A stretch of DNA of 35,035 nucleotides from Gammaproteobacteria bacterium (GTDB lineage Bacteria > Pseudomonadota > Gammaproteobacteria > Pseudomonadales > Cellvibrionaceae): assembly GCA_025362015.1 (NCBI GenBank), contig JANYIO010000102.1:1-35035 (forward strand). Reading direction: 5' to 3'. This document shows positions 14,430 to 35,035 of this stretch, piece by piece. The position numbers and the translations under genes were made by a program. The notes below the pieces were generated by a model. That model was not told the DNA's origin and did no database searches. It was given only the letters and a program-made list of their open reading frames with translations. The stretch's first letter is position 1. Every line of letters starts with the position of its first letter.

Positions 14430-14551
14430 TTAGTTGCACTCTAATAAAATAAGCTTCACGTGAATAAAATAAGTTGTACTTTTAATACAATCAGTTGCGC
14501 CTTAATAAAATAAGTTTCACGTGAACAAATTCAGTTGCACTTTAATAAAAT
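14430..14551 (-). repeat. Six degenerate approximately 20-base copies of the glgB 3' end filling the glgB-glgA spacer
   Basis: Read on the minus strand, the end of glgB (14551-14531, encoding ILLKCN plus TGA) is followed by five further units of 19-21 bases: 14530-14512, 14511-14491, 14490-14471, 14470-14451 and 14450-14430. The consensus is ATTTTATTAAAGTGCAACT. Two units (14530-14512 and 14470-14451) share a variant core CACGTGAA, so an alternating higher-order pattern is visible. Only about 18 bases, including the glgA ribosome-binding site, remain outside the array. Confidence 0.92.
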
Positions 14552-17144: not shown

Positions 17145-18404
17145 ATGAGTACTAATAAAACTTCTGGTCGCTTCGTTAGCCGTTTAACACAAAAAACCCT
17201 GGCACTTATTTTGGCGGGAGGCCGCGGTTCACGTCTTCATCATCTTACTAATTGGCGCGCAAAACCGGCTGTACATTTTGGCGGAAAATTCCGCATTATA
17301 GATTTTCCATTATCCAATTGCGTTAACTCTGGAATTCGTCGTGTTAGCGTACTCACGCAATATAAATCTCACTCGCTGGATCGTCATATTCAACGTGGCT
17401 GGGGGTTTCTCGGTGGTGAGTTAGGTGAGTTTGTGGAGTTATTACCAGCACAACAACGCCTCGATGAATCCTGGTATGTTGGTACCGCCGATGCCGTTTT
17501 GCAAAATCTCGATATTATAGATCGCCATAATCCTGAATATGTGTTGATTCTTGCCGGTGATCACATTTATAAAATGGATTACGGCACCATGATTGCGGCG
17601 CATGTTGAACGCGGTGCCGATATCACTGTTGGTTGCATTGAGGTGCCACTCGATATCGCTCATGCATTTGGTGTTATGGATATTGATCAAGATAATCGTA
17701 TTGTGCGTTTTACCGAAAAGCCGGCAAAGCCTGAGCATATGCCCGGCAAACCGGATAAAGCACTTGCCTCGATGGGCATCTATGTTTTTAGCACTAAAGT
17801 GCTTTTCAGTGAATTATTAAAAGATCAAAAAAATCCAGACTCATCACACGATTTTGGTAAAGATATTATTCCCGCGATGATTAAATCGCATCGCGTTACC
17901 GCATTTCCTTTCCGTGATCCTATCAATGGCGGCGATGGTTATTGGCGCGACGTAGGTACTGTTGATGCGTTGTGGGAAGCTAACCTTGAGTTAACCAGCG
18001 TGACGCCTGAATTAGATTTGTACGACGCTGAATGGCCAATCTGGACGCATCAAGAACAAGTTGCTCCTGCAAAATTTGTATTTGATGACGATGGCCGTCG
18101 TGGTTATGCAGTGGATTCACTAATTGCCGGAGGCTGTATTGTTTCCGGGTCAACAGTGCGTCACTCATTGCTCTTCCCGCGTGTGCGTGTGCATTCTTAT
18201 TGCGAGATTAGCGATTCAGTGCTTTTTCCCAGTGTTGAAGTGGGTCGCAACTGCAAAATTCGTAAAGCGTTAATTGATCGACGCTGTAAAATTCCTGAAG
18301 GAACTGTTATCGGTTACGACAACGAAGCCGATCGAAAACGATTTTTTGTCTCCCCCAAAGGCGTTGTTTTAGTAACTCCTGAAATGTTAGGTTATGTTGA
18401 CTGA
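17145..18404 (+). CDS. glgC: Glucose-1-phosphate adenylyltransferase GlgC (ADP-glucose pyrophosphorylase)
   Basis: GlgC makes ADP-glucose from glucose-1-phosphate and ATP, the committed step of bacterial glycogen synthesis. The 419-residue protein has the nucleotide-binding [18 protein letters not shown] (19-36), [27 protein letters not shown], the [13 protein letters not shown] segment, [25 protein letters not shown] with the substrate-site Lys, [11 protein letters not shown] and YWRDVGT. A left-handed beta-helix C-terminal domain ends near [10 protein letters not shown] chose ATG 17145, with AGGA before it, over TTG 17043, because the extra 34 residues are Lys/Thr/Pro-rich, derive from a repeat and precede the normal family start. 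Allosteric control (fructose-1,6-bisphosphate/AMP in E. coli) is family knowledge. The GH57 gene follows after 30 bases; same operon. Confidence 0.97.
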
Positions 18405-18436
18405 GGCGAGTTCAAATTGACTGAGGAGAATTCCAT
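18397..18436 (+). repeat. 20-base tandem duplication across the glgC stop and GH57 start
   Basis: 18397-18416 and 18417-18436 match at 16 of 20 positions and both begin TTGACTGAGG. The first copy contains the glgC stop (TGA 18402-18404). The second supplies the ribosome-binding site GAGGAG and runs into the ATG at 18435. Confidence 0.85.
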
Positions 18437-20195: not shown

Positions 20196-20283
20196 CTCAA
20201 TAAATAGTTTATTACCAACAAACCATGAAAAAATTGTATGCATAAATAAATCACTAAAACCAAAGGGGAGAACTCTTCTACTT

Positions 20284-21834
20284 ATGCAAAAAAATATGGC
20301 GGCTATTTCACCCCTTTTTTTAACCCGACGTGCAGGTGTCTTGCTGCATCCAACATCGCTGCCGAATGAACAAACTTTCTCGCATCCAGATTCTATTGCT
20401 CAATTACATGGCACACTCGGAAAAGATGCCTATACTTTTATTGATTTTTTAGCAGCTTCAGGCATTAGTATTTGGCAAATGTTACCGACAGGGCCTACGC
20501 ATGCTGATCTATCGCCCTATCAGTCATTATCATCACACGCTGGCAATCCTGAATTAATTAGTATTGACTGGTTGATCGAAAAAAATTGGGTAACACCAAA
20601 AAGTAAATGGAATTCTGCCGGAGCCATCACCGAAAACATAAGTGCAAAAATGCATAAGATTCGTGCTGAATGTGCAATTCAATTTTATGCGCTAATTGCA
20701 AGCGAGCAGGGCAAAGAGCTGTCAGAAAAATTCAACCAGTTTCGCAAGGAAAACCTTTATTGGCTAGATGATTTTGTATTATTTATGGCACTGCGTAAAT
20801 ACTTTGATAATTGCCCCTGGAATCAGTGGCCTGAAGCAGTAAAAAAGCGCAGCCCTGAAGCTTTACAAGCTTATGATGAAACGCTTAAATCTGAAATTGC
20901 ACTTTTTACTTTTGAACAATTTGCTTATTCGCAACAATGGCAACAATTGCGTCATTATGCGACAGAAAAAAATATTGCATTGTTTGGTGATATCCCTATT
21001 TTTGTTGCGCATGACAGTGCCGATGTATGGGCGGCGCAAGAATTTTTTAATTTAGATGCTGAAGGAAATGCACTGACTGTAGCGGGTGTACCACCCGATT
21101 ATTTTTCAGAAACAGGGCAGCACTGGGGTAATCCACATTACAACTGGCGGGCGATGGAGGAAAGTGGTTTTAGTTGGTGGTTGGCGCGCTTGCGCTCACA
21201 ACTCAATCAGTTTGATTTAATTCGTATTGACCATTTTCGTGGCTTTGAAGCATTTTGGGAGATTTCTGGAGAAAGTAAGGATGCGCGGAACGGCACATGG
21301 GTTAAGGCGCCAGGAGAAGCTTTTCTAAAGGCTTGTTTTGCAGAATTTCCATCTTTGCCTTTAGTTGCAGAAAACCTGGGAGTGATAACGGCAGAAGTTG
21401 AAGCACTACGGCATCAATTTAATTTGCCGGGCATGTTAGTGCTACAGTTTGCATTTGATGGCAATATGAAAAATCCTCATTTGCCGCACAATCACTCACA
21501 TAGTGATGTTATTTATACCGGTACACATGACAACGATACTACCCTCGGTTGGTATCAAACACTTTCAGAACAACAGCAACAGTTAGTTGAAGATTATCTA
21601 TGTGGCAGCAAACAAACTATGCCGTGGTTATTAATTGATGCGGCACTTGCATCGGTAGCGCCCATGGCAATTATTCCGTTACAAGATATTTTAATGTTGG
21701 ATGGCAAGCATCGTATGAATATGCCTGGCACTATCGGCAAGAATTGGATGTGGCAATTTAACTGGCGACAATTGCCAGAGGATTTAAGTGGTAAGTTGTA
21801 TACACGTTTAGCTCGTTACGATCGTTTAAGTTAA
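20284..21834 (+). CDS. malQ: 4-alpha-glucanotransferase MalQ (GH77, amylomaltase)
   Basis: MalQ disproportionates maltodextrins, moving glucan segments between chains and releasing glucose. The 516 residues show GH77 motifs in order: RAGVLLHPTSLP (16-27), WQMLPTGPTHADLSPYQS, GDIPIFVAHDSADVW, nucleophile Asp316 in LIRIDHFRGFEAFWE, acid Glu363 in LVAENLG and Asp416 in YTGTHDNDTT. Length matches the compact, DPE1-like bacterial form and not the longer E. coli form with an N-terminal extension. An open frame from 20092 overlaps the GH57 gene and adds 64 non-homologous residues, so I place the start at ATG 20284 after AGGGGAG (20264-20270); ATG 20296 is an alternative. It is in the glgC-GH57-malQ-PilZ operon. 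Confidence 0.95.
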   Translation: MQKNMAAISPLFLTRRAGVLLHPTSLPNEQTFSHPDSIAQLHGTLGKDAYTFIDFLAASGISIWQMLPTGPTHADLSPYQSLSSHAGNPELISIDWLIEKNWVTPKSKWNSAGAITENISAKMHKIRAECAIQFYALIASEQGKELSEKFNQFRKENLYWLDDFVLFMALRKYFDNCPWNQWPEAVKKRSPEALQAYDETLKSEIALFTFEQFAYSQQWQQLRHYATEKNIALFGDIPIFVAHDSADVWAAQEFFNLDAEGNALTVAGVPPDYFSETGQHWGNPHYNWRAMEESGFSWWLARLRSQLNQFDLIRIDHFRGFEAFWEISGESKDARNGTWVKAPGEAFLKACFAEFPSLPLVAENLGVITAEVEALRHQFNLPGMLVLQFAFDGNMKNPHLPHNHSHSDVIYTGTHDNDTTLGWYQTLSEQQQQLVEDYLCGSKQTMPWLLIDAALASVAPMAIIPLQDILMLDGKHRMNMPGTIGKNWMWQFNWRQLPEDLSGKLYTRLARYDRLS

Positions 21835-21860
21835 ATAACCGTCATTATCTAGGGGGTTGT

Positions 21861-22226
21861 ATGGAACATAGATACACAGAACGTTATGTGAGTGATTTAA
21901 GTGTTTTGATTTATCAAGATAAATTGCCAGTCGCCATTGGTCGCATCAAAAATGGTAGCCGATTAGGCATTTTTATTGAAACAGATTTTGCAAATATTGA
22001 TTGCGAACACCAAATCTCACTAGAGCTTCCACAGAGCCGCAATTCTGCTAATAAATTACCCAGGGTTGAAATGAATGCTCTTGTAATCCATAAAGCTGAA
22101 AAAGGGTTTGGTGTTGAGCTTGATATTAAAACACAAGAACAGACTGATTTATTTGTTGAAATATTGCGCGCGCTCTATGAAAAGCCGCAAGACGCTCAGA
22201 TTTTTTCAATGGCCGCTACCCGTTAG
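21861..22226 (+). CDS. Small PilZ-domain protein (c-di-GMP receptor candidate)
   Basis: The 121-residue product carries the two PilZ hallmarks: RxxxR as RYTER (residues 4-8) and [D/N]xSxxG as NGSRLG (31-36), followed by beta strands. Both c-di-GMP-contact motifs are intact, so binding is plausible. AGGGGG lies 7 bases before the ATG, and the 26-base gap to malQ suggests co-transcription with the glycogen genes. That would put a second-messenger receptor in a storage-polysaccharide operon, although association by read-through alone is possible. A hairpin at 22296-22329 follows. Confidence 0.8.
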   Translation: MEHRYTERYVSDLSVLIYQDKLPVAIGRIKNGSRLGIFIETDFANIDCEHQISLELPQSRNSANKLPRVEMNALVIHKAEKGFGVELDIKTQEQTDLFVEILRALYEKPQDAQIFSMAATR

Positions 22227-22295
22227 CATTACCTGATTTTATTATTATCCGTATTAATTTAATAACTTGTAACGTTAACCTTTGCTTAACAAATA

Positions 22296-22329
22296 TTAGC
22301 CGCCAGGGAAATTAAATCTTGGCGGCTAA
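22296..22329. terminator. Hairpin, probable terminator of the glgC-GH57-malQ-PilZ operon
   Basis: TTAGCCGCCA (22296-22305) pairs perfectly with TGGCGGCTAA (22320-22329) around a 14-base interior, where two further pairs (one G-U) are possible. Only ATTT follows the stem, so termination strength is uncertain. Confidence 0.6.
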
Positions 22330-22606
22330 ATTTACGGTCACGCTAAAAAATATTAATTTCTCTATTCCATATAAAATTTTTATAAAAAATGTATCAAAAA
22401 TTATTTGATTAATATACTATTGCACCAAGTGTGATTAAATGTTAACGAATGTCGTCTAAGTTAATGTTTATAAGGATCTATATGAACCTGAATGAATTTA
22501 GGTAGTTAAAAGGATAACTTGTAATGTTCTAGCAATAGTTTACAAAGGAAAATTTTTTATCAAGGATAACGTAAAAGCAGATTATCTTATTTTTCGTTCT
22601 CTGGTC

Positions 22607-22648
22607 GTTAATATTGCATGTTAATCTTGCATAGAGTTAATGTTGCAA
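22607..22648 (+). repeat. Three direct repeats GTTAATnTTGCAt upstream of the PPTase gene
   Basis: GTTAATATTGCAT (22607-22619), GTTAATCTTGCAT (22620-22632) and GTTAATGTTGCAA (22636-22648) lie within 52 bases of the start codon. They could be activator or repressor sites, or another small tandem duplication of the kind seen elsewhere in the window. Confidence 0.8.
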
Positions 22649-22658
22649 TAGAGATGCT

Positions 22659-23408
22659 ATGACTAGCCTTAACGCTTTAAAAAATGAGATTCATCTCTGG
22701 TGTGTTAATACCTCTGACCTTGATTATAAAATCGCCAAAAAACATCTAATTTGTGATCTTAGTGCTGATGAGATTGCAAAATGTAATGCTTATTTTTTTG
22801 AAAAAGACAAGCTTAGTTGTTTGATTGGAAAATCCTTAGTTCGCCGCATACTTTCATACTATTATCCGAAAATTAAGCCCCATGAATGGTGTTTTTCTAT
22901 TGGAAAATATGGGAAACCTTTTGCGAATCACGAACAAGTAAGCGCTGCGTTTAGTTTTAACTTATCGCACTCACGCGAGTTTGTAGTCTGTGCGGTTTGT
23001 TGCTTCGGCGAGATAGGCGTTGATGTTGAATACATTAGGAAAATGGATGACATGGATAGTGTTGCACAGAATTTCTCTAGTTGTGAAACAGAAGCGATTA
23101 GACGTGTACAAGGTCACGATAAATTAGAGTTGTTTTATCGCATTTGGACACTGAAAGAGGCTTATGTTAAAGCGATAGGGCTAGGATTGACCGTACCTTT
23201 ATCAGATTTTGGTTTTGAATTTTCAGATACAGATAATATTGTATTACATGTCGATTCAATACCGACATCAAATAACTCAGTATGTTTTTGGAGTTTTGAT
23301 GCACCAAAAGAAGGTTATAAGTTAGCGGTTGCGGTCAATAACACCGAAAGAAATGATGTGGTTTTAAGATTTATGGAGCTTAACGAGTGGCATTGTTGCA
23401 AGGATTAA
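22659..23408 (+). CDS. 4'-phosphopantetheinyl transferase, Sfp/Gsp type
   Basis: It transfers phosphopantetheine from CoA to the active serine of carrier proteins, making them functional. The 249 residues show KYGKPFANHE, FNLSHSREFVVCAV (100-113), the Mg-binding GVDVE (120-124; Asp122, Glu124) and WTLKEAYVKAIGLGL (163-177; Glu167), the full signature of the two-domain Sfp type. The PKS and ACP that start 1.4-5.2 kb downstream are obvious clients (predicted serines at ACP Ser121 and PKS Ser1494). ATAGAG lies a few bases before the ATG. The 615-base spacer downstream means it is probably transcribed apart from the PKS genes. Confidence 0.93.
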   Translation: MTSLNALKNEIHLWCVNTSDLDYKIAKKHLICDLSADEIAKCNAYFFEKDKLSCLIGKSLVRRILSYYYPKIKPHEWCFSIGKYGKPFANHEQVSAAFSFNLSHSREFVVCAVCCFGEIGVDVEYIRKMDDMDSVAQNFSSCETEAIRRVQGHDKLELFYRIWTLKEAYVKAIGLGLTVPLSDFGFEFSDTDNIVLHVDSIPTSNNSVCFWSFDAPKEGYKLAVAVNNTERNDVVLRFMELNEWHCCKD

Positions 23409-23471
23409 GTGCATGCCACTGCGCATTGAAAACTTCGACATGGTGCAGAATATTTAAAATTTCTTGCTGGC

Positions 23472-23508
23472 TAGCAGAGAATTATCAGATTTTATAATCT
23501 GCCTGCTA
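23472..23508. terminator. Two-part hairpin after the PPTase gene (possible terminator)
   Basis: The outer arms TAGCAG (23472-23477) and CTGCTA (23503-23508) enclose an inner stem CAGATT (23486-23491) with AATCTG (23496-23501) and a 4-base loop. No strong T-tract follows directly, so termination is a guess from position. Confidence 0.4.
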
Positions 23509-23511
23509 ATT

Positions 23512-23529
23512 ATTTATTGATCAATAAAT
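23512..23529. promoter_or_regulatory. 18-base perfect palindrome, possible operator
   Basis: ATTTATTGATCAATAAAT is its own reverse complement and lies about 100 bases past the PPTase stop. It could be a dimeric regulator site. AT-rich sequence raises the chance of accidental palindromes. Confidence 0.4.
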
Positions 23530-23930
23530 GTCATTATTTTTTCACGTTTATTTCGTGATGGTATTTTATTGCCTGAAATTTTTCATATTGATACTGAGAG
23601 ACTGAAGCTAAGGGGCAATGACTGTAACGAAAACTACTGATTAACAGTTAGGCGTGATTAAAAAATTATTTATTTTTATAGATAAATAAAATTGTCATTA
23701 TTAATGGATATGTTAGCTAACAAAATTTAATTAACAAAAATTATTGTCCGTAAATTAATGACCCATAATTGTGCAAAACAAATATTTATTTATGTATTTT
23801 AGTGCGAATGTTTAAATAAATTTTTCAATAGTTATCTTAAAATACATAAACCGTACAAGTTATTGGTAAAAGTGACGCACAAAATTGCATGATGGCGCAC
23901 CGAGTAATATAAGAGTCGCATAGATTATCA

Positions 23931-23979
23931 TTGACGAAAATATTTTAAAAACGCTTTAATTGGCATCTATTTTGCCAAT
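23931..23979 (+). promoter_or_regulatory. Promoter of the PKS operon with overlapping inverted-repeat operator
   Basis: TTGACG (23931-23936) and TTTAAT (23955-23960) are 18 bases apart and fit a sigma70 promoter. A perfect inverted repeat ATTGGCA-N7-TGCCAAT (23959-23979) begins in the -10 box and covers the expected start point near 23967. That is the classic place for a repressor operator. It lies 45 bases before the DUF1302-like start codon. Confidence 0.55.
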
Positions 23980-24023
23980 AAATTTGTAAAGGTTTTTGTA
24001 TTTACATTAATTAAGGAAATATA

Positions 24024-25400
24024 ATGAAGTATCATTTTTACAAAGGAACTAATTTTTACAAAGTAACTATTCCGTTACTCTGCTGGTTGTTCATCACTGT
24101 TACGCAGTTTTCTGCTGGCAATGTAAAAGCTAAGGATATTGATTTAGATACGGAGATAGCTTACTTATCTGCATACAACTATGCTGAAAATTACCTTTCA
24201 AAATCTGAAGCAAGAATCTCTTTTTCTCTAGAAAAAGACATATTTGATAGCTCACGAATTTACGCCAAAACACTTCTTTTAAACGACTTTTCAGGACGCC
24301 TGGAAGTGGGGGATCCCTATGACAATGAACCTCACTCTTGGGGTGATCGCTTAAGCCTTAACAATTCGCACGATTTGCAATTTGAATTGCGCGAATTGTA
24401 TTGGCAGGTGGTAGGTGATACGAGCTTAGTGCGCATTGGCAAACAACAAACAGTATGGGGGAAGGCCGATGGTGTTGTGGTTCTTGATTTGATAAACCCA
24501 TTTCGCTACAGAGAGTTTGTTCTTGAAGATTCTAAAGATTCACGTATTGCGCAATGGTCAACAAATGTAGATTTAACATTTGATGCATTTACTTTTCAAG
24601 TGGTTTGGATTCCAGATAATACTTATGGCGACTTTCCCAATATGCAAAGTGAATTTGCAATTACTTCGGCGCAGCTGGTTCCGCGTTACCCGCAGCCATT
24701 TCCTGCACAATACAAAATATTGCGACTTGATAAGCCAAATGATGTTATCCAAAATTCCGATGTTGCACTTGAATTAGGTAAGTCTTTGGGGGGGTGGGAC
24801 GTCACGCTGAATTACATCAATCAAATGGCAAATGATCCCGTTTTTTTCCGCACTATTGATTATTCGCAAGCATTGCCATTGGTCACTGTTGCTGCAACCT
24901 ACACCCGTGTACCGACACTCGGCGCAAGTGCCAGCAAAAGCTGGGGAGATTTGGTGATGCGTACAGAATTGGCATATCGAAAAAATCGCTACATTATCGA
25001 CTACGACGTTCAGGATGAGGATGGCGCGCAAAAAACAGATGAATTAAATTATGTTGTGGGCCTGGATTATTTTGGTTTTAATTCGGCATTACTGAGTGCG
25101 CAAATATATCAAAGCCACCTGATGTCTTATAAAAATTCACTGGCAAGGGAAAGAGCTGTCACCTTATTTACTCTGCTTTACCAAAAATCTTTTTTTAATG
25201 ACACGTTAACTTGCGAAGGCCAATGGCTAACAGATCAAAACGGGCATGATGGTTTGGTGCGGTTAAGTGCATCTTATCGTATGACGGACACTTATACCCT
25301 TGACATTGGTGTTGATACTTTTTATGGCGATGCGAATGGCATATTTGGTCAGTTTGACGCGCGCGATCGAGTAAGTTTTGGTTTAAAAGCAAAATTTTAA
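24024..25400 (+). CDS. DUF1302-like outer-membrane beta-barrel protein
   Basis: The 458 residues start with a signal peptide (hydrophobic core PLLCWLFITVTQF, likely cut near residue 36 before KDIDLDTE). Alternating amphipathic strands follow to a terminal aromatic residue (GLKAKF, final Phe), as in outer-membrane barrels. Internal segments such as LRELYWQVVGDTSLVRIGKQQTVWGKADG and DLINPFRYREF resemble DUF1302-family proteins, which are linked in databases to lipid or hydrocarbon use and export. Function is not established. AAGGAA precedes the ATG by 7 bases. It is the first gene of the cluster, behind the promoter at 23931, and the FAAL-like gene follows after 25 bases. An inferred role is passage of the PKS-derived lipid, or of its fatty-acid precursor, across the outer membrane. 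Confidence 0.75.
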   Translation: MKYHFYKGTNFYKVTIPLLCWLFITVTQFSAGNVKAKDIDLDTEIAYLSAYNYAENYLSKSEARISFSLEKDIFDSSRIYAKTLLLNDFSGRLEVGDPYDNEPHSWGDRLSLNNSHDLQFELRELYWQVVGDTSLVRIGKQQTVWGKADGVVVLDLINPFRYREFVLEDSKDSRIAQWSTNVDLTFDAFTFQVVWIPDNTYGDFPNMQSEFAITSAQLVPRYPQPFPAQYKILRLDKPNDVIQNSDVALELGKSLGGWDVTLNYINQMANDPVFFRTIDYSQALPLVTVAATYTRVPTLGASASKSWGDLVMRTELAYRKNRYIIDYDVQDEDGAQKTDELNYVVGLDYFGFNSALLSAQIYQSHLMSYKNSLARERAVTLFTLLYQKSFFNDTLTCEGQWLTDQNGHDGLVRLSASYRMTDTYTLDIGVDTFYGDANGIFGQFDARDRVSFGLKAKF

Positions 25401-25425
25401 TATTTATTTTACTGAGGGAAAATTT

Positions 25426-27120
25426 ATGGAAACTATTATTAATCGACTAGAAAATATTACGAAAATGGCTCCTGATCTTGAATGGTTTTTTCCTGATACA
25501 GATAAAACTATTAAGGTTCATCAATTAAAATTACTTATCGATGAATACTCAACAAAATTTCAGTTGTTGGGTATTAAAGCGCAAGAGGTTGTAGGCCTGA
25601 CTTTGCCCAACAGTTTAGAGCTGGTTGCAGCTTTGTATGCCTGCTGGAAGAACAACTATATTGCTGTGCCATTGCGAACAAAATCAGGTAAATATCAAGT
25701 CTATCTCGATTTTCTTATTGCCTGCCACCAATCGTGTAATTTTAAATTGATGCTTTGCGCTAATGACACTTCGTTGGAGATGCGCGAAACATGGCAACAA
25801 AAAACCCAAACTACAATAAAAACGCTGGATGAATTTGTCGCGTTAGCTGCTGATCAAAAGTCACCACCCATAAATCAATTGCCAGACCAGCATGAGAATG
25901 ATTTAGCCATTATTCAATTTTCATCAGGCAGTACCGGTTTTCCAAAAGGAGTGATGGTTACTCACAATATGGTGATGCGTCAGCTAGAACACATTTATTC
26001 TTCGCATCATAAAAATTATGGCGAACCTTTACAAAATATTGTCGCCTCCTGGACACCTATTAATCACGATATGGGGCTCTTTACTGGAGTTTTATACCCT
26101 ATATTTTCTGGCAGTACGCATATTTTGGCATCGCCAGAATATTACATGCAAAATCCGTCGCGTTGGTTCAAATTGCTTGCAGAGCGCAAAGTAGAATTAA
26201 GTTTTACCACGAACTCTGCCTTAGCCGTTGGCTTGCGCTCGGTTAAGCGTTTGTATAATCAGCCAGATACAGATTTGTCGAAATTACATATGTATATATC
26301 GGCAGAAAAAATTAGCAGTATTGTGTTGAAAAAAGCTCGCGAACTGTTGGCTCCACTTGCCATGAATTCCGACAGAATTCACGTTGCCTATGGCATGGCT
26401 GAAAATAGTTTAGGTGCAAGCGTAAGTCGTCGCGGTGAATTATCAATTCAAAGGGTTGCTATTCTGGAAGATCATCGCGTTATCTTTGCGGACGCCAGCA
26501 ATCAAAATTCTTTTGAGTTAGTTTCATCAGGTTATGCCAATCCGATGCACGACATTACTGTCCGTAATGTTAATGATGAAGTTGTAGATGAATTAATTTT
26601 AGGTGAAGTCAACATAGAAAGTAATTGTATGACGCCAGGCTACATGAATATGCCGGAAAAAACGGCAGAAAAATTTATTGATGGTCGCTTTAGAACCGGT
26701 GACTTAGGTTTTATGTGGCGCGGTGAATTGTACTTTTACAGCCGTAAAGATGATTTGATTGTGTATAACGGTCGCAACATTGTGCCCGAAGATATAGAGG
26801 AAACAGTGGAATCACTGGATTTTGTGAGAGCGTCAGCCAGCGCGCTGTTGGCCTGGGAAAGTTCTATTACAGGAACCATGATATTGCATTTGTTGGTTGA
26901 AGGTCGTGAAACGGATTCTGCCGAGACGATGGAAGCTAAATGCAAAACTATCAGGTTAGATGTGCTGGAAAAACACGATGTAGTCTTAACAAAAATTTAT
27001 CTATGCGCTAAAGGCACAATAGAAAAAACATCGAGCGGAAAAAAACGCCGCAAGGTATTAACTGAGCGTTTGAAAGCAGGGCAATTAGAAATTTATACCG
27101 GTATTCACGAAACAGCGTAG
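25426..27120 (+). CDS. Fatty-acyl-AMP ligase-like adenylate-forming enzyme
   Basis: It is predicted to activate a carboxylic acid with ATP and load it on a carrier protein. The 564 residues show the ANL-superfamily motifs: FSSGSTGFPKGVMVTH (165-180), SWTPINHDMGLFTG (208-221), YGMAEN (322-327), RTGDLGF (423-429), GRNIVPEDIE (449-458) and the C-terminal KTSSGK with catalytic Lys537. The HDMGL block, GRNxxPxDIE and TSSGK are characteristic of FAALs that feed polyketide synthases and not of CoA ligases. I cannot confirm the FAAL-specific insertion by eye, so a CoA ligase is still possible. GAGGG precedes the ATG. The next gene encodes an ACP, the obvious acceptor. The stop codon begins a triple 21-base repeat. 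Confidence 0.88.
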   Translation: METIINRLENITKMAPDLEWFFPDTDKTIKVHQLKLLIDEYSTKFQLLGIKAQEVVGLTLPNSLELVAALYACWKNNYIAVPLRTKSGKYQVYLDFLIACHQSCNFKLMLCANDTSLEMRETWQQKTQTTIKTLDEFVALAADQKSPPINQLPDQHENDLAIIQFSSGSTGFPKGVMVTHNMVMRQLEHIYSSHHKNYGEPLQNIVASWTPINHDMGLFTGVLYPIFSGSTHILASPEYYMQNPSRWFKLLAERKVELSFTTNSALAVGLRSVKRLYNQPDTDLSKLHMYISAEKISSIVLKKARELLAPLAMNSDRIHVAYGMAENSLGASVSRRGELSIQRVAILEDHRVIFADASNQNSFELVSSGYANPMHDITVRNVNDEVVDELILGEVNIESNCMTPGYMNMPEKTAEKFIDGRFRTGDLGFMWRGELYFYSRKDDLIVYNGRNIVPEDIEETVESLDFVRASASALLAWESSITGTMILHLLVEGRETDSAETMEAKCKTIRLDVLEKHDVVLTKIYLCAKGTIEKTSSGKKRRKVLTERLKAGQLEIYTGIHETA

Positions 27121-27180
27121 ATCTTGTAATTTTAAAGGTAGGTCTTGTAATTCTAAACATAGGTCTTGTAATTTTAATTT
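27118..27180 (+). repeat. Three 21-base tandem repeats beginning with the ligase stop codon
   Basis: Units at 27118-27138, 27139-27159 and 27160-27180 share TAGGTCTTGTAATTTTAA with few changes. The first starts with the stop codon itself. Because 21 is a multiple of three, each unit repeats TAG, TAA and TAA in the ligase frame, giving nine in-frame stops. The array ends 31 bases before the ACP start codon. Confidence 0.95.
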
Positions 27181-27211
27181 GTTCTTAATCCTTGAAGCGA
27201 GAGAATTAATA

Positions 27212-27841
27212 ATGCCAACAAAAAATCCTGAGCACATCAAAGCTATTGAATCGCAAATACATGTTAATCAACGTATTTGTAATTTTATGGAAACAGCGTC
27301 CAAAAAAAGTTTGTTGTCTTTATCGCAAGATATTGAACAGCTTTACAAGGACATTATTATTGACATCAAATTATGTTCACAAACTCTGGCGAGTATTATT
27401 CATCCAGATAATATCCAATCTGTAAAAGTTACAGACAATGAAACATTCAAAATCCCTTCTGCAAATGCTGATTCGATAAAAAGTCATTTAATTAATTGGC
27501 TTCTAGAGCATGACTATCATGAGAGCGATGCCATTGATACAAAATTACCTTTTGCAGAAATGGGCTTGACCTCAATAGATGCTGTCGCACTTGCCGATAC
27601 AATTCAAACCAAGTTTCTGGTTGACATAGACGCAACAGTCGCCTGGCAATACCCCACCATTGATACGCTGACAAAACATATTGTTAAATTGACATCAAAT
27701 CAATCGCAGAATCATTTTTCTGACGCGCAGAAGCCGTCTGCGAATGTTCGCCCTAATATGGAATCTATGGCGGAATTAAGCTTAGAAGATATGGCTTTTC
27801 AATTAGAAAATTTAATTTCAATGGGCGCACAACGCGCGTAA
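27212..27841 (+). CDS. Acyl carrier protein with long N-terminal helical extension
   Basis: The 209 residues divide into an uncharacterised, mostly helical N-terminal region (1-85, no membrane segment), a carrier domain (about 86-162) and a polar linker with a terminal helix. The carrier domain has LPFAEMGLTSIDAVALADTIQTKF with Ser121 as the phosphopantetheine site (GLTS in place of the usual GxDS), and WQYPTIDTLTKHI as the final helix. The terminal ELSLEDMAFQLENLIS (about 186-201) resembles the tails that dock carrier proteins to a following PKS. I place the start at ATG 27212 with GCGAGAG upstream; a TTG at 27179 lies inside the repeat. It sits between the FAAL-like ligase and the PKS (16 bases away), so it probably carries the fatty-acyl starter. 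Confidence 0.85.
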   Translation: MPTKNPEHIKAIESQIHVNQRICNFMETASKKSLLSLSQDIEQLYKDIIIDIKLCSQTLASIIHPDNIQSVKVTDNETFKIPSANADSIKSHLINWLLEHDYHESDAIDTKLPFAEMGLTSIDAVALADTIQTKFLVDIDATVAWQYPTIDTLTKHIVKLTSNQSQNHFSDAQKPSANVRPNMESMAELSLEDMAFQLENLISMGAQRA

Positions 27842-27857
27842 AAGGAGTTGGCATCAC

Positions 27858-30800
27858 ATGACTGAGCAGCACGAGAACGCAACTAAAATGAAGGATTTAT
27901 TACTGGCGTCCTATGTCAAAATTCAGGGATTGCATCAACAAATTGCAGCCTATGAAAATGATACGAATGCGCCCATCGCAATTGTGGGCATAGGTTGCCG
28001 TTTCCCGGGAGGTTGCGATACGCCTGATGCTTATTGGCGTTTGATTGCTGAAGGACGTTGTGCTGTTAAAGAAATTGATAACACGCGCTGGGATATGACT
28101 GGGCTGTATTCGCCTGATAGTACTCAGCCAGGCAAGCTCTATGCTACATCCATGGCATTGTTGGATAACGTTGATCTATTTGATGCCGCACTATTCAAAC
28201 TGCCGCAAGAAGAAGCTGAACTGATGGATCCGCAGCAGCGCTTGTTGCTGATGGCCTGCCACGAAGCCATGCAAAATGCTTGCTATACACCAGAGCATTT
28301 TGCCGGTTCAAATACCGGCGTGTTTGTTGGTTTAAGTACTGCCGATTACTCGCGTATCACCGTCAATATGGCGCACGCCGATAAAATTGGTGGCTATGCC
28401 TGCTTGGGTAGCGCATCCAGTGTGGCAGCTGGTCGCGTGTCTTACTTGTTAGGTTTGCATGGCCCTGCAATGGCCGTTGATACTGCTTGTTCTTCGTCGC
28501 TGCTCTCAGTGCATCTGGCATGTGAAAGTATTCGCCGTGGTGAGTGCGAAGTGGCGCTAGCAGGTGGTGTGAATGTTATTTTGACACCCGAAAATTCTAT
28601 TGGCTTATCTAAAATATCGGCCTTGTCGAAACAAGGTTTATGCAAAACTTTTGATAAAGATGCTGATGGTTATGTACGCGGCGAAGGCTGCGGAATGGTA
28701 TTACTGAAAACCCTCGCACAAGCCAAAAAAGATGGCGATGAAATTTATGCAGTAATTTATGGCTCTGCAGTAAACCAGGATGGCGCCAGCAATGGTTTAA
28801 CTGCACCCAACGCGACTATGCAAGAAGCATTGATCCAATCTGCTTTGAAAAATGCAGGCCTTCAAGCCACGGACATTGGTTATGTAGAAGCACATGGCAC
28901 AGGCACTGTACTCGGCGACCCGATTGAAGTGAATGCGCTGGGGCGGGCGCTGCAACGCACCAGGGAATCCAACCCATTATTAGTGGGTTCGGTTAAAACT
29001 AACATCGGACATTTAGAATCTGCGGCGGGCATCGCCTCGCTGATTAAAATGTGCCTTTCAGTGAAATTTCGCACGATTGCGCCTCATCTACATTTAGAAA
29101 ATCCGAACCCACACATAGCCTGGGATAAATTTAATGTCACAGCTCCGGCTCAAGCCCGAGCTTGGGATAGCACTATGGCGCAGTATGGTTCTGTTAGTGC
29201 GTTCGGCTTGAGTGGCACTAACGTCCATTTGATTGTTGGTGCAGCTGAGCCCGACGCTATGGATCCGAATGCTGCAAACCAAAAGCATGCGAGTCAGACA
29301 CCTGCTGCACACACAAGCTTAGTGTTAACACTGTCAGCAACAAGTGCATCTGCTTTGAGTAACACAGCGGGGCGTTGGGGGGATTTTTTAAGCCTGCGTC
29401 CAGATGCTGTGGCAGACACTGTGGCGCTAAGCCAACTCTTTAACACTGAGGGCATTTATCGCGCGGTGATAAATTCGGGTAACCAGAATGAATTCAGCAC
29501 GCAACTGCAACAATTAGCCGTTGGTGAAGAAAAGCTTACATTTCAAGGCAAGTTACTGGAAGCCAACCAGCGTCAACTGGTGATGATGTTTTCCGGTCAG
29601 GGATCGCAATATCTGGGTATGGCGCGTGATTTATATCTTCAGGAACCGGACTTTGCTGCTGCACTACAACAAGCGTTTAATTTTTATCAAACTGAAACAG
29701 GGCAATCTCTGGAAGCTGTCATTTGGGGTAAGGATGCGGCACTCCTCGATAATACTGCCCATGCGCAAGTCGCAATTTTTGCCGTGCAATACGCGCTCTA
29801 TCGCTATTGGCAGGCTAGAGGAGTTATTGCAAATTATGTCGTTGGCCACAGTATTGGTGAGTATGCCGCTGCGGTGGCGGCAGAGGTGATGACATTCGAA
29901 GAAGCTATGCGTTTGGTGATTCTTCGCGGCCAACTTATGGCTGCTTTGCCGAACAATGGTGGCATGAATGGCGGCATGTTAGCAGTACAAACAACGGCTA
30001 CACATATCGAAGAATTATTGCAAACCAATGAGGATTTTACCGCCTTAAGTATTGCTACCTTAAATTCAGATAAAGATATTGTCTTGGCTGGCCCGTTGGC
30101 TCAGCTCGATAAATTGCAACAACGTCTGAATGGCGATGGCATTAAAACCACACGACTTAACGTCTCTCATGGGTTTCATTCACCGCTCATGGAACCTGTG
30201 TTGGCACCATTTTATGAAGCTGTAAAAAAAGTTTCGCTGAAACCACCGCGCATTAAGTTTTGCTCAACACTTTATGGCGATTGGACAAGTGATGCCTTGT
30301 GCGACCCACAATATTGGGTAGAGCAAATTAGAAAACCAGTGTGCTTTTCTGCAGCGATTAAACAGATCGCCAAGGAAACTGTTGGCGCCTATTTGGAGAT
30401 AGGCAGCAGTGCTACGCTATCCACTTTTGTGCTTTCCAGCTTGCAGCCAGCGCCTGAATTAGTATTGTTTTCGCTGCGCAAAAATAAGGATGATCAGCAA
30501 ACGCTGCTAGCTTCCTGGGCACAGTTATACATTGCCGGCCTGGCACCTGCGAGTATGTTATCGACCACTGCTAGACCAGCGCGCAGAACTATTCCGGCTG
30601 CTGCGCCCAACTTGAAACGCTATTGGTGTGAGTATGATGATCAATACAAAACCATTACCAAAACAAGCAATAACCTATCGCTTATTCAATCGCTGAATCT
30701 ACAACAGAGCTGGAAACCCGTTGCCAGTTTACAAGCGGTGCATACAGCATCCGATCAAAGTGATTGCCTCGTAATATGTTTTGAGCCAATGCAGAGCGAT

Positions 30801-33800
30801 TCACACTCAGTTATTTATATTGATTATCGCCGGCTAGCGAACCCTGAGAATAGCGATGTAAGAGCGCTCTATGTCACGGCGTTAAATGCAAAATTAAAAC
30901 GCAAAGAGAAGCTTAAAGAATTACTGGTGCTGGCTCCGTCATCTACTGCGGGCAATGAAGCGCAAAACTATTTGCTGGCAATCGCCCAGGTTACACAAAT
31001 CATCATGAAGCAGGCACTTGGCTTAGGTTTGGCGCAGGTGAGCTTCGTTTCTCAACAAAATAATTCTCAGCCTGCAGAAGGGTTTTCTCTGCACCATAGC
31101 CTCGCGGGTTGGTGCCGTTCGCTGCGTTTGGAATACCCACAAATTGTTATCCAGCAACTGCAATTTATGGGGGCTAATACACAACCCAATCGCAATAATT
31201 TGCTCGACATAATCCAAACTCACAATGCTTTTGTTCAGTACGGTACAGAAGTAAAAATTGCTGATAATCAGATATTGATTCCGGAGTTGCAGGCAATTCC
31301 AACGGCTGAGTTAAACACTGCGGTTCAGGTCATTGCCGATGCCACCTATTTAATCACCGGCGGTTTGGGTGCCTTAGGTTTTGCGCTGGCTACATTTCTG
31401 GTTGATCAGGGCGCGCGGCATATTGCGCTGCTGTCCAGACGCAGTCAGCTAACACCTGAGCTTGCCAAACACTATGAAGTATTAAACAGCAAAGGCTGTG
31501 AGTTGACGCTGTTAAGCGTTGACCTTGCAGATGAAAAGGCACTTTCAGCTTGCTTGGATGAATATCTACAAACCCGACCACCGCTTAAAGGCGTAGTCCA
31601 TTGCGCAGGTATATTGCATGATCAACTCCTCAGCGATGTTGATGCCGCAAGTCTGGAGTCGGTGTTTACGCCCAAAATCGCGGGCAGTATTCATATTAAC
31701 AACTACCTGAACGACTGGAATAACGACAAAATTTCACTCGATTTCTTCGTACTGTTTGGTTCTGTCGCGGCCAGCTTTGGCAACCTCGGCCAAAGTGCCT
31801 ATTCTCTGGCCAATGGTTTTTTACACGACTTAAGTGAGTGGCGCCGAGAAAAAGGGTTACGAGCACAAACTATCGCATGGGGACCCTGGAACGGCAGCGG
31901 CATGGCTAACAATTTGTTGGTGGCCGAAACACTCAAAGCCAGCGGTATCGCATTACTTGATGTCGAGAAGGGCGTTGAGCGTTTTGCCCGACTTGCCACC
32001 TACACAACAGATGCAATTGTGTTTGATGCGGATATCAAACAGCTTAACAACGCGCTCCAACAACTACGCCAACCTGCATTTTTCCAACGTTTTATTGCAG
32101 ATATCTTTGCAGTTACATCGGCAAATACATTCGCAGCTGCAGGTTTAAACCAACAGCCGAAAACTATCGCACAAGCAGAGCCAAGTGAGTTAGACACTTA
32201 CCTTGCCACGTGCAAAAATTTATCCGAACGAGACGCCGTCATGAAGTTTGTACGCTCGCGGATTGCTTATGTTTCCGGCAATGATGCGGCTATGGATTTT
32301 GCAGCGGATCAACCGCTAAGCGAACTAGGATTGGATTCACTGATGGCAGTACAGTTAGGTGCAAACCTGGCCAAAGCTATCGGGAAAATTTTGCCTGTCA
32401 GCCTGTTGTTTGATTACCCCAGTATTCAGGCTCTTACCGATTTTTTGCGCAAAGAATGTTTGACGGAGAAACTCAATGCACCCGCGCAAGAATCATTATC
32501 AGCACCTTTAACAGCTCAAGAAGATATTGCCATTATCGGGCTGAGCTGCCGCTTTCCCGGAAGTATCGGAAGCGACTCAGATTTCTGGCAACTGCTTGAA
32601 CAAGAAGTGGATGGGGTTGGCGAGGTGCAAAATCAACGCTGGAATAGCGCTGATTACTATGACGCGAATCTGGATACTCCGGGAAAAATGTACAGCCGCT
32701 GGGGCGGGCTATTGCAAGGTATTGATCAATTCGACGCGGGCTTTTTTGATATCAACAAACAAGAAGCCCTGTTTATGGATCCGCAACAGCGTTTGTTGCT
32801 GGAAGTCGCCTGGCAAGCTTTAGAGCATAGCAACGTGTTGCCCACAGACTATCCGGATGCAGGGGTATTTGTAGGGGTAGGGCCAAACGAATACATTCAT
32901 AGCGTTAAGTCGATGGGCGTTGAACATACCAATGCTTATTTGGCCACGGGCAATTCAATCAGCGTAGCCGCTGGGCGCCTGGCTTATTTTCTCGGCTGGC
33001 AAGGGCCGGCAATTGCGATAGATACAGCATGCTCCTCGAGTCTGGTCAGTATCAACCTCGCCTGCGAAGCCTTATTGCGTGGAGATTGTTCGCTCGCTTT
33101 GGCGGGTGGCGTTAACCTTACTCTATCGCCCTTAACAAATATTGCACTCTCAAAAGCGCGCATGCTATCCCCGGTTGGGCGCTGCAAAACCTTCGACGAT
33201 TCTGCTGATGGTTACGTGCGTTCAGAAGGCTGCGGTCTGGTCACCCTGAAGCGATTAAGCCACGCCATTGCCAACGGCGATAATGTACTTGCCGTTATCA
33301 AAGGCGGCGCTATTAATCACGACGGGAAAAGTCAGGGGTTAACGGCGCCCAATGGCCTCGCGCAAGAGAAAGTCATGCGTTTGGCGCTGCAACGCTCTGG
33401 GTTAAAACCTGAGGATATCCAATACGTTGAAGCCCACGGCACCGGCACCACCTTGGGTGACCCGATTGAAATGCATTCTATAGAAACTGTTTACGGGGAA
33501 AATCGTACGGAAAAACTCTATGTAGGCTCAGTCAAAACTCACATTGGGCACACTGAAGCCGCAGCGGGAATCGCTTCCGTCATAAAAGTTGTAATGATGA
33601 TGCAGCACCAGAAAATTGCCGGTAATTTGCATTTGCGCAAACTCAATCAGCATTTTAGTGCAGCCTTACGTGCAGATGACTCGGCAATCATTATTCCCAA
33701 GCATGCCTGTAACTGGCCAGAATCTACCACCGGGCAAAGGGCGGCGGCCATTAGTTCTTTTGGTTTCAGTGGTACTAATGCGCATCTTATTCTTACCCAG

Positions 33801-35035
33801 GCACCTGTTATTCATGCCCAAGGGTCAGAGCTTTTAGGGCTAGACGAAGACTCAGGCACGTCACTGGAAAATCAATCCTATGTATTGCCGATAGCGACGA
33901 AATCTACGGCCGCCTTACGCCAACAGGTAACTGCCTATGTCGATTATCTAGCTCAATATCGTGGTTCTCTTAAAGCTATGTGCAGTACTGCTGCGCTATC
34001 ACGCCAGCATTTTCCGTTTCGGAAAATGTTTGTGGGCAGTACAACTGCTGAGTTGCAGCAAGCGATGAATGAGTGGCTTGCAGAACCTGCACCAGCCAAA
34101 ATCAATAGCAAAAAGCCGCCAGTTGTATTTGCATTTACGGGTCAAGGCAGCCAATACCTGGGTATGGGGCGTGAGCTTTTTGGAGTTCTGCCACGCTTTA
34201 CGCAAGTATTGCAGGACTGTGATGCCTTGATGGCAACCCACATGGGGGAATCGATTATCGCGGTCATGTTCGGCGATGATCTACAAAAAATTGACAATAC
34301 TTACTACACCCAGCCTGCCTTGTTTGCCCTGGAATACGCCTTGGCAGAACAATGGCTAGCATGGGGCATTACCCCGGATTTTGTTGTAGGCCACAGCATT
34401 GGTGAATTCGCTGCCGCATGTGCTGCCAAAGTATTTAGCTTGGCAGATGCCGTGACCATGGTATGTGCAAGAGCCCGTTTGATGGTGCAACTTTGCCAGC
34501 CCGGATCTATGTTGGCGGTGTTTACTAATCAAGTACAGATTGCCAAGCTTTTAGCAGAACTATCGCTGGAACAGCAAAATTTGCTTTCCATAGCAGCTGA
34601 AAATGAGCTCAGTAATACGATTGTTTCAGGTGATCATGAGGCGATTCTTGCACTCGCCCATCTGTGCTCCACTCACGAGATTAATACACAACAGTTAACG
34701 GTATCCCACGGGTTTCATTCGGTAATGATGGAACCGATGCTCGACGCATACCGAGCCGCCATAGCCACTACTCAATTTCACGCACCGCAAATTCGTTTTA
34801 TTTCCACAGTGCTCGGCAAAGAAGTCACTACAGAAATTTGCAAGGTGGAATATTGGGTAGAACAGGTCGCCAGCAAAGTAAGATTTTATGATGCAGTGCA
34901 AACTCTGGTTGCCGGCGGAGCCAAATTATTGTTGGAGTTGGGGCCCTACAACCAGCTCAGCAAAATGGCGGCGAGATCAATGCCTAAAGATCAAATGATT
35001 TTGCTGCACTCTTTATCCAATCAGGCCCACAATCA
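27858..35035 (+). CDS. Modular type I polyketide synthase, KS-AT-KR-ACP-KS-AT..., 3' end outside window
   Basis: From ATG 27858 (AAAGGAG at 27841-27847) one frame stays open for 2392 codons to the window edge. Residues 8-33 form a docking-like helix. Module 1 has KS 39-461 (Cys211 in DTACSSS, His346 in EAHGTGT, His385 in NIGHLE) and AT about 574-877 (Ser665 in GHSIGE; SHGFHS with His774, the malonyl-type pattern). It continues with a KR structural part followed by KR (TGGLGALG from 1167, Ser1302, Tyr1315) and ACP (GLDSL, Ser1494). Module 2 has KS from 1556 (Cys1725, His1860, His1898) and AT from 2089 (Ser2180, SHGFHS with His2287). There is no DH or ER in module 1, so a beta-hydroxy product is expected. 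The KR segment GILHDQ keeps the second Asp of the B-type LDD motif. Later domains lie beyond the window. Confidence 0.97.
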   Translation, partial: MTEQHENATKMKDLLLASYVKIQGLHQQIAAYENDTNAPIAIVGIGCRFPGGCDTPDAYWRLIAEGRCAVKEIDNTRWDMTGLYSPDSTQPGKLYATSMALLDNVDLFDAALFKLPQEEAELMDPQQRLLLMACHEAMQNACYTPEHFAGSNTGVFVGLSTADYSRITVNMAHADKIGGYACLGSASSVAAGRVSYLLGLHGPAMAVDTACSSSLLSVHLACESIRRGECEVALAGGVNVILTPENSIGLSKISALSKQGLCKTFDKDADGYVRGEGCGMVLLKTLAQAKKDGDEIYAVIYGSAVNQDGASNGLTAPNATMQEALIQSALKNAGLQATDIGYVEAHGTGTVLGDPIEVNALGRALQRTRESNPLLVGSVKTNIGHLESAAGIASLIKMCLSVKFRTIAPHLHLENPNPHIAWDKFNVTAPAQARAWDSTMAQYGSVSAFGLSGTNVHLIVGAAEPDAMDPNAANQKHASQTPAAHTSLVLTLSATSASALSNTAGRWGDFLSLRPDAVADTVALSQLFNTEGIYRAVINSGNQNEFSTQLQQLAVGEEKLTFQGKLLEANQRQLVMMFSGQGSQYLGMARDLYLQEPDFAAALQQAFNFYQTETGQSLEAVIWGKDAALLDNTAHAQVAIFAVQYALYRYWQARGVIANYVVGHSIGEYAAAVAAEVMTFEEAMRLVILRGQLMAALPNNGGMNGGMLAVQTTATHIEELLQTNEDFTALSIATLNSDKDIVLAGPLAQLDKLQQRLNGDGIKTTRLNVSHGFHSPLMEPVLAPFYEAVKKVSLKPPRIKFCSTLYGDWTSDALCDPQYWVEQIRKPVCFSAAIKQIAKETVGAYLEIGSSATLSTFVLSSLQPAPELVLFSLRKNKDDQQTLLASWAQLYIAGLAPASMLSTTARPARRTIPAAAPNLKRYWCEYDDQYKTITKTSNNLSLIQSLNLQQSWKPVASLQAVHTASDQSDCLVICFEPMQSDSHSVIYIDYRRLANPENSDVRALYVTALNAKLKRKEKLKELLVLAPSSTAGNEAQNYLLAIAQVTQIIMKQALGLGLAQVSFVSQQNNSQPAEGFSLHHSLAGWCRSLRLEYPQIVIQQLQFMGANTQPNRNNLLDIIQTHNAFVQYGTEVKIADNQILIPELQAIPTAELNTAVQVIADATYLITGGLGALGFALATFLVDQGARHIALLSRRSQLTPELAKHYEVLNSKGCELTLLSVDLADEKALSACLDEYLQTRPPLKGVVHCAGILHDQLLSDVDAASLESVFTPKIAGSIHINNYLNDWNNDKISLDFFVLFGSVAASFGNLGQSAYSLANGFLHDLSEWRREKGLRAQTIAWGPWNGSGMANNLLVAETLKASGIALLDVEKGVERFARLATYTTDAIVFDADIKQLNNALQQLRQPAFFQRFIADIFAVTSANTFAAAGLNQQPKTIAQAEPSELDTYLATCKNLSERDAVMKFVRSRIAYVSGNDAAMDFAADQPLSELGLDSLMAVQLGANLAKAIGKILPVSLLFDYPSIQALTDFLRKECLTEKLNAPAQESLSAPLTAQEDIAIIGLSCRFPGSIGSDSDFWQLLEQEVDGVGEVQNQRWNSADYYDANLDTPGKMYSRWGGLLQGIDQFDAGFFDINKQEALFMDPQQRLLLEVAWQALEHSNVLPTDYPDAGVFVGVGPNEYIHSVKSMGVEHTNAYLATGNSISVAAGRLAYFLGWQGPAIAIDTACSSSLVSINLACEALLRGDCSLALAGGVNLTLSPLTNIALSKARMLSPVGRCKTFDDSADGYVRSEGCGLVTLKRLSHAIANGDNVLAVIKGGAINHDGKSQGLTAPNGLAQEKVMRLALQRSGLKPEDIQYVEAHGTGTTLGDPIEMHSIETVYGENRTEKLYVGSVKTHIGHTEAAAGIASVIKVVMMMQHQKIAGNLHLRKLNQHFSAALRADDSAIIIPKHACNWPESTTGQRAAAISSFGFSGTNAHLILTQAPVIHAQGSELLGLDEDSGTSLENQSYVLPIATKSTAALRQQVTAYVDYLAQYRGSLKAMCSTAALSRQHFPFRKMFVGSTTAELQQAMNEWLAEPAPAKINSKKPPVVFAFTGQGSQYLGMGRELFGVLPRFTQVLQDCDALMATHMGESIIAVMFGDDLQKIDNTYYTQPALFALEYALAEQWLAWGITPDFVVGHSIGEFAAACAAKVFSLADAVTMVCARARLMVQLCQPGSMLAVFTNQVQIAKLLAELSLEQQNLLSIAAENELSNTIVSGDHEAILALAHLCSTHEINTQQLTVSHGFHSVMMEPMLDAYRAAIATTQFHAPQIRFISTVLGKEVTTEICKVEYWVEQVASKVRFYDAVQTLVAGGAKLLLELGPYNQLSKMAARSMPKDQMILLHSLSNQAHN

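Follow-up and report, generated by a model that had tools for sequence, protein, structure and literature searches.

A fatty-acid-primed polyketide synthase locus in a Cellvibrionaceae bacterium as the possible first half of a cluster for exported butenolide lipids

The stretch of DNA considered here (the window; 35,035 nucleotides) is the whole of contig C12, JANYIO010000102.1, in the draft genome of a gammaproteobacterium of the family Cellvibrionaceae (GCA_025362015.1, handled here as G000; 4.5 Mb in 328 contigs). It carries part of a gene cluster for a polyketide that is predicted to be primed with a fatty acid. On the forward strand, a gene for a DUF1302 outer-membrane-type protein is followed by genes for a fatty acyl-AMP ligase (FAAL), a stand-alone acyl carrier protein (ACP) and a type I polyketide synthase (PKS), with intergenic gaps of 25, 91 and 16 bases (Table 1). 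The 91-base gap is obtained when the ACP starts at ATG 27212; the listing of open reading frames (ORFs) opens it at TTG 27179. In the synthase, Pfam finds two ketosynthase (KS), two acyltransferase (AT), one ketoreductase (KR) and one phosphopantetheine-binding (PP) domain, and the active-site motifs can be read in the translations: the KS Cys and His residues, the AT motif GHSIGE together with HGFH, the KR residues and the ACP serines. By a general rule, HGFH in an AT goes with malonyl specificity. The gene order, shared strand, spacing and KS-AT-KR-ACP-KS-AT layout given in the original prediction, a model's reading of the sequence, are borne out by the ORFs and Pfam. Its single promoter is not: a sigma-70 consensus scan of 21800-28000 gives 17 matches versus 23.1 ± 4.3 in shuffled sequence, and hence no promoter signal above chance. 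The contig end, position 35035, lies inside the synthase, and the cluster continues beyond the window.

Table 1. Features of the window, of contig C211 and of related loci (positions without a prefix are those of the window)
Feature	Position	Strand	Evidence or remark
DUF1302 outer-membrane-type protein	24024..25400	+	PF06980 44.1 bits; proposed lipid exit
FAAL, fatty acid loading	25426..27120	+	AMP-binding 160.9 bits; P-loop SSGSTGFPKG
Stand-alone ACP with N- and C-terminal extensions	27212..27841	+	PF00550 37.5 bits; Ser motif GLTSI
PP domain of stand-alone ACP	about 27527-27682	+	PF00550
Type I PKS, truncated by contig end right after second AT	27858..35035	+	Pfam domains
KS1	27969..29237	+	PF00109/PF02801; fabF match 41-460; Cys/His/His motifs
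AT1, malonyl-type motif HGFH	29586..30545	+	PF00698; GHSIGE
KR1	31341..31892	+	PF08659 186 bits
ACP1	32295..32447	+	PF00550; GLDSL
KS2	32529..33800	+	domain match; KS motifs
AT2, malonyl-type motif HGFH	34125..34970	+	fabD match residues 2090-2371; GHSIGE
PKS remainder: post-AT linker, dehydratase-KR-ACP	C211:20963-17919		stop at 17919; proposed continuation
Last synthase: KS, AT-sized stretch without GHSxG, ACP, AfsA	C211:17793-14491		
HAD phosphatase	C211:14449-13784		HAD 103.9 bits
FAD monooxygenase (FMO)	C211:13754-12051		
START-like protein	C211:12067-11357		18.6 bits, below cut-off 22
LolA_like protein	C211:11339-10497		PF17131, 156.1 bits
MMPL protein	C211:10406-7866		102.1 bits
Stand-alone AT	C211:6782-7786		divergent from the other cluster genes
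Sfp/HetI-type 4'-phosphopantetheinyl transferase	22659..23408	+	ACPS 63.2 bits; HetI model 142.8 bits, cut-off 370
Glycogen locus: glgA-, glgB-, glgC-like, GH57 and GH77 genes	12918-21834		
Five AfsA+HAD sensor loci	L117:5679-12589, L125:5413-12037, L126:4562-11299, L244:6240-13047, L245:6338-13187		

The top NCBIfam model for the ligase is fatty acyl-AMP ligase (223 bits; the cut-off of 600 is not reached). Against PDB sequences, FAAL, FadD23 and FadD32 chains score 104-128 bits and the acyl-CoA ligase FadD13 scores 77 bits; by these scores the window's ligase is closer to FAALs than to acyl-CoA ligases. The handoff from FAAL to ACP to PKS that had been predicted is supported by the stand-alone ACP, which aligns with the mycolic Pks13 model at its N-terminal ACP (E 8e-14 and 50 bits, a score far under the cut-off for the whole protein); the FAAL FadD32 loads this N-terminal ACP of Pks13. 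Close relatives of the window's FAAL were not found: at E 1e-40, identities among the matches listed are at most 33% in the order sample (390 genomes) and at most 31% in the genus (21 genomes), and all best places in a search of 926 plasmid records lie below 60%. The FAAL being without close relatives, no orthologous whole cluster is available for comparison.

The remainder of the synthase was sought in the same genome with the last 835 PKS residues as query. Twelve matches resulted: two on C12 and those on C63 and C211 exceed 400 bits, and the others stay below 93. C12 stops right after AT2; C211, read in reverse, opens in a post-AT linker and continues with dehydratase (DH), KR and ACP domains. 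Both contig ends align to a contiguous PKS on contig C63, and the implied spacing is -6 residues; this amounts to a single test, as both aligned rows are one C63 protein. From these sequence comparisons, C12 and C211 are held with high but not full confidence to be one cluster. The original prediction had proposed extending the contig to the PKS stop; the later domains and genes can now be listed from C211, by way of an inferred join. C63 itself was rejected as the continuation, as it begins inside an AMP-binding domain and holds a second FAAL-PKS. This FAAL-KS-AT synthase (L089:2-11391) has 2,397 codons, a cut start and, by alignment, a DH/KR-ACP-like stretch; the next gene there, also outside the window's cluster, encodes 1,399 residues with an AMP-binding-like stretch.

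On C211, the proposed end of the assembly line is a protein of 1100 residues with a PP-binding domain at 836-892 and an AfsA domain at 951-1081. No thioesterase family is found in this protein at E 0.01, and no KR was found in this final module. The AfsA domain, a single hotdog, scores 75.8 bits (Pfam cut-off 24); a motif scan reads its motif as HPQDHIPGLYLIEASRQ, and H, H, G, E, R and Q are invariant in all eight aligned AfsA rows, two Streptomyces ScbA/BarX proteins among them. In the case of gladiostatin, the corresponding didomain of ACP and AfsA (phosphorylated butenolide synthase, PBS) condensed a 3-ketothioester with dihydroxyacetone phosphate in vitro to give a phosphorylated butenolide (PMC7756379), and in that of gladiofungin, deleting 65% of the AfsA domain abolished the product (PMC7756420). 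A subsequent phosphatase step is only proposed for the two compounds (PMC7756420, PMC7756379). Orphan AfsA-ended lines are described in Gloeobacter, Paenibacillus and Ruminiclostridium (PMC7756420), and about 93% of AfsA-domain proteins fall in gammaproteobacteria and actinobacteria (PMC7426152). Since the final module on C211 lacks a KR, a beta-ketoacyl-ACP is expected there, which is the substrate needed by a gladiostatin-type reaction. The HAD protein scores above HAD-IB cut-offs (124.8 versus 98.3); together with an AfsA-HAD fusion in another genome (G285, below), this fits removal of a phosphate. The FMO shows similarity to hydroxylases of the polyketide and phenol types and to rifampin monooxygenases; any substrate assigned to it is a guess.

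The DUF1302 protein at the head of the run, above its gathering cut-off of 23.2 bits, has a signal-like hydrophobic N-terminal stretch and a C-terminal Phe. It has no match at E 1 among PDB sequences, and its AlphaFold model, built from 2 alignment rows, is too poor for use (pLDDT 34.8). At E 0.001 it is matched in 21 of the 57 genomes searched, its own included, and the 11 best loci outside its own genome were widened. LolA-like homologues, found with the C211 protein as query, lie near DUF1302 in ten of these and MMPL in nine, where all three occur together; G055 has neither partner and G051 has LolA only. Pfam confirms MMPL and LolA_like in all three loci scanned (G048, G041, G012). As a rule, then, the DUF1302 protein is accompanied by a pump and a carrier of the periplasm; the window genome has its LolA and MMPL on C211. 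The earlier suggestion that a lipid is moved through the outer membrane gains support from these associations. For DUF1302 with a pump there is a precedent in AmeABCD, where DUF1302, a LolA/DUF1329 protein and an HAE3 pump of the resistance-nodulation-division (RND) type occur together and deletion lowers monoterpene tolerance (PMC6394551). In proteomics of Thalassolituus on long alkanes, an MMPL-LolA protein and a porin-like neighbour are also found as a pair (PMC6304351). The likeness of the window genome's MMPL pump to HAE3 may be taken only as a claim about how it could work, by analogy. Two other DUF1302 loci also carry genes of lipid or polyketide metabolism. One run (L032:3-8477, G048:C197) holds a FAAL, a 4HBT thioesterase, an MMPL-LolA fusion, DUF1302 and two fatty acid desaturases, apparently another lipid class served by the same exporter type; in L037:1-14336 (G046:C165), the contig ends in a PKS/AMP-binding gene, with DUF1302, LolA-like and MMPL genes nearby.

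Matches to AfsA (PF03756) occur in 15 of the 390 order-sample genomes, in 5 of 369 from the class sample and in 5 of the genus's 21, with the window genome counted each time; the total is 23 genomes, the class-sample match in G494 being below cut-off. Seventeen of the 22 other genomes were widened (G099, G158, G174, G205 and G494 were left out), some to stretches that are short or at contig ends (G048, G742). MMPL, LolA and DUF1302 all stand beside AfsA in G285 and G012. In G285, a single contig carries a FAAL-ACP (Pfam), a KS-AT-KR-ACP synthase (alignment) and a KS-ACP-AfsA-HAD protein (Pfam; its ACP by the motif GFDSL only), followed by FMO, MMPL, LolA and DUF1302 (alignment); here AfsA is fused to HAD. 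In G012, of the window's genus (L121:10308-18976), a condensation-adenylation protein of nonribosomal peptide synthetase (NRPS) type with a nitroreductase-type insert and a peptidyl carrier protein precedes a KS-AfsA protein without GHSxG, and HAD, FMO, MMPL, LolA, DUF1302 and then a thioesterase follow. Judging by G012, chain builder and head-group/export genes seem to be swapped. An alignment scan with two generic FMO patterns, from which 80 listed loci were kept, some of them short, finds MMPL, LolA and DUF1302 together in one, Nitrincola alkalilacustris NZ_WBOM01000012.1, where AfsA and HAD (Pfam) and FMO, MMPL, LolA and DUF1302 (alignment) stand in a row; no PKS match occurs in this 21.6-kb stretch. 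Its AfsA is found with the G012 and G285 AfsA as queries. Two further loci among the 80, L146 and L169, have AfsA matches only.

Partial arrangements are also seen. G266 and G183 have FAAL and AfsA in a single reading frame, of 2,557 and 2,519 codons, with KS-AT between; some 6 kb downstream, MMPL follows on that strand, and neither LolA nor DUF1302 is matched there. These giant frames (L115:2014-17212 and L118:2846-17857) look like a one-protein version of similar chemistry. AfsA-FMO-HAD occurs in G041 and G001, and AfsA-FMO on a 4.6-kb contig in G048. HAD lies near AfsA in 11 of the 17 widened genomes (G285, G012, G370, G296, G041, G023, G123, G714, G001, G015, G011) and was not found near it in the other six (G266, G183, G204, G742, G710, G048). 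The best plasmid relative of the AfsA domain, in Mycetohabitans rhizoxinica, shows no cassette among 19 annotated neighbours, in a gene table that is incomplete.

On balance, a cluster for the synthesis and export of a long-chain butenolide, or a furan derived from it, probably has its first half in the window. The FAAL would adenylate a fatty acid and load it onto the stand-alone ACP. Module 1 of the PKS (KS-AT-KR-ACP) would add a C2 unit and leave a hydroxyl; module 2, with KS-AT on C12 and DH-KR-ACP on C211, would add another and leave a double bond; and the final protein (KS, dead AT, ACP), receiving malonate via the stand-alone AT, would add a C2 unit and leave a beta-ketone. The AfsA domain would then condense the beta-ketoacyl-ACP with dihydroxyacetone phosphate into a phosphorylated butenolide, the HAD-IB enzyme would strip the phosphate and the FMO would oxidise the product. 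START-like and LolA-like proteins may take it over from the MMPL pump and carry it to the outer membrane, with DUF1302 as the putative site of exit or insertion. From the domain order, the predicted chain is a fatty acid plus three C2 units, with a hydroxyl, a double bond and a ketone next to the butenolide ring. The original prediction had named a hydroxylated, malonyl-extended fatty acid or lipid placed in or moved through the outer membrane. Its lipid-export part fares well, whereas a butenolide-headed lipid is the likelier product, the line seeming to end in AfsA; that class was missed because the contig stops inside the synthase. A broader proposal is tentative and leans towards doubt: AfsA-HAD-FMO-MMPL-LolA-DUF1302 could be a recurring six-gene cassette that makes and installs an undescribed class of outer-membrane lipids headed by a butenolide or furan; the chain builders in front (FAAL-PKS, NRPS-PKS, the cell's own fatty acid synthesis) would be interchangeable, and DUF1302 would be the outer-membrane exit for these and other lipid routes.

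Were C211 a separate cluster, the window's synthase would end otherwise, for example in a thioesterase, and make a hydroxylated fatty acid. A draft of 328 contigs in which no sequence spans the join leaves room for this, but the two ends complement each other within a single PKS module, hardly any residues being missing (by one spanning homologue), and G285 has FAAL, PKS, AfsA, HAD, FMO, MMPL, LolA and DUF1302 on a single contig. The window's DUF1302 would moreover be left without its usual LolA and MMPL partners, while C211 carries the sole PF17131 match found in the genome, and a separate C211 is considered very unlikely. Little credence is likewise given to the AfsA-like hotdog being dehydratase- or thioesterase-like, releasing or dehydrating the chain instead of making a butenolide. 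Its fold is common to dehydratases and thioesterases, and its score lies far under the ScbA/BarX equivalog cut-off; however, the E..RQ motif is conserved with gamma-butyrolactone synthases, the fusion to HAD in G285 and the frequent nearness of HAD to AfsA fit a phosphorylated product, and the gladiostatin domain, likewise C-terminal behind an ACP, is proven (PMC7756379). A diffusible butenolide signal or antibiotic, expelled by the pump and not retained in the outer membrane as a lipid, would agree with the known AfsA products, which are signals in Streptomyces or the antibiotics gladiofungin and gladiostatin (PMC7756420, PMC7756379), with an AfsA cluster of Ruegeria pomeroyi that is required for killing competitors (PMC7426152) and with AmeABCD working as an efflux system (PMC6394551). 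This is nevertheless judged unlikely: FAAL priming and three extensions predict a hydrophobic chain, and LolA-like and START-like carriers would suit delivery to a membrane better than release into the medium.

Several observations weigh against an exported butenolide lipid made by a shared cassette. The ends of C12 and C211 have no 10-base word in common, and their adjacency is drawn from one spanning homologue and gene logic. The DH motif on C211 lacks the usual Pro; the START match falls under its cut-off, nor was a START homologue seen next to any of the other cassettes. The MMPL protein scores 157.9 bits against TIGR00921 (HAE3), the best of five models, and misses the cut-off of 351.9; the AfsA domain scores 48.1 bits against NF041195, the ScbA/BarX equivalog (cut-off 200), over positions 4-156 of 290. 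The cassette is rare (2 of 17 widened AfsA genomes, 1 of 80 FMO loci listed), and the Nitrincola AfsA and HAD are not found by those of the window genome at E 1e-4; this pair may come from a stand-alone AfsA lineage. In trees of 12-14 proteins with 200 bootstrap trees, the cassette LolA proteins, four in number, cluster together with 100/100 support, and that of the window genome stands nearest to the G012 protein (57%). None of the 200 bootstrap trees unites the cassette DUF1302 proteins, which share one starred tree part with five others. Three cassette MMPLs group 100/100 with the window genome's outside on a long branch, and all four form one group in 4% of bootstrap trees; the window genome's pump may thus have been exchanged. 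The trees weigh partly against simple inheritance of the whole set.

Upstream of the DUF1302 gene, the phosphopantetheinyl transferase has a second, distant copy in the same genome (contig C71, 29% identity). Such enzymes occur in 20 of the 21 genomes of the genus, with best congener matches of 36-37%. The window's gene therefore looks like an extra copy, and is probably the dedicated activator of the cluster's carrier domains. The glycogen genes further upstream have no evident functional tie to the PKS cluster, and their position beside it, remarked on at the outset, looks incidental; in the ORF listing the final two overlap (18417-20195 and 20092-21834). Neither Rfam, at gathering scores, nor tRNA scans match anything in the window. 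Elsewhere, five genomes, two from the same genus and three from the same family, carry a stand-alone AfsA+HAD pair divergent from genes for an SBP_bac_3 protein of the periplasm, a CHASE5 histidine kinase and a response regulator, with a GGDEF-EAL protein alongside (L117 by Pfam; the other four by 40-66% alignment identity to L117). Each resembles a unit in which a butenolide signal synthase is paired with a dedicated two-component sensor and a cyclic di-GMP output, possibly a quorum-sensing system.

The cluster predicts a concrete product class, fatty-acid-primed butenolide lipids, and would link AfsA-type PKS release with a three-protein trans-envelope exporter. It suggests a role for DUF1302, a family of unknown function, and makes that role directly testable. 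That the cassette occurs both behind a PKS and with none before it sets the building of the chain apart from head-group formation and export, and the AfsA-HAD fusion in G285 supports the phosphatase step so far only proposed for gladiofungin and gladiostatin.

Among known systems, the mycobacterial FadD32-Pks13 and PKS-MmpL systems share FAAL loading of an ACP, extension by a PKS and export of the lipid by an MMPL protein; their release in FadD32-Pks13 is by thioesterase, unlike the proposed AfsA release with LolA-like and DUF1302 partners. The Streptomyces AfsA/ScbA/BarX and Mmf systems have the AfsA motif and an AfsA protein alongside a phosphatase, which is MmfP in the Mmf system; SabP likewise accompanies an AfsA-type enzyme (PMC7756379). 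Unlike AfsA/ScbA/BarX, the domain on C211 has one hotdog only and forms part of a PKS. Among the scanned genes, no receptor of the ScbR/ArpA type stood out, no search having been aimed at receptors. The trans-AT PKSs for gladiostatin and gladiofungin both end in ACP-AfsA instead of a thioesterase and encode phosphatase candidates (PMC7756379, PMC7756420). An AT in trans supplies malonate to their whole line, and here would do so for the last module only; the present cluster further differs in FAAL priming, cis-ATs in modules 1-2, an FAD monooxygenase, a HAD-IB phosphatase adjoining AfsA (fused in G285) and the DUF1302/LolA/MMPL export set. AmeABCD of Castellaniella defragrans also unites DUF1302, a LolA/DUF1329 periplasmic protein and an HAE3 RND pump in one cassette, but serves monoterpene tolerance and has a fourth protein, AmeC (PMC6394551), whereas here the trio accompanies a synthesis line, and the operon of the window genome opens with DUF1302, LolA and MMPL being on C211. 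In the open-licence PMC literature, as represented by titles and the starts of abstracts, no listed paper joins AfsA release with DUF1302/LolA/MMPL; PMC6930871 mentions AfsA, butenolide and, once, 'MMPL family'. Each component has a precedent, their linkage is absent from the papers listed, and the cluster is filed as a variant of a PBS-released PKS.

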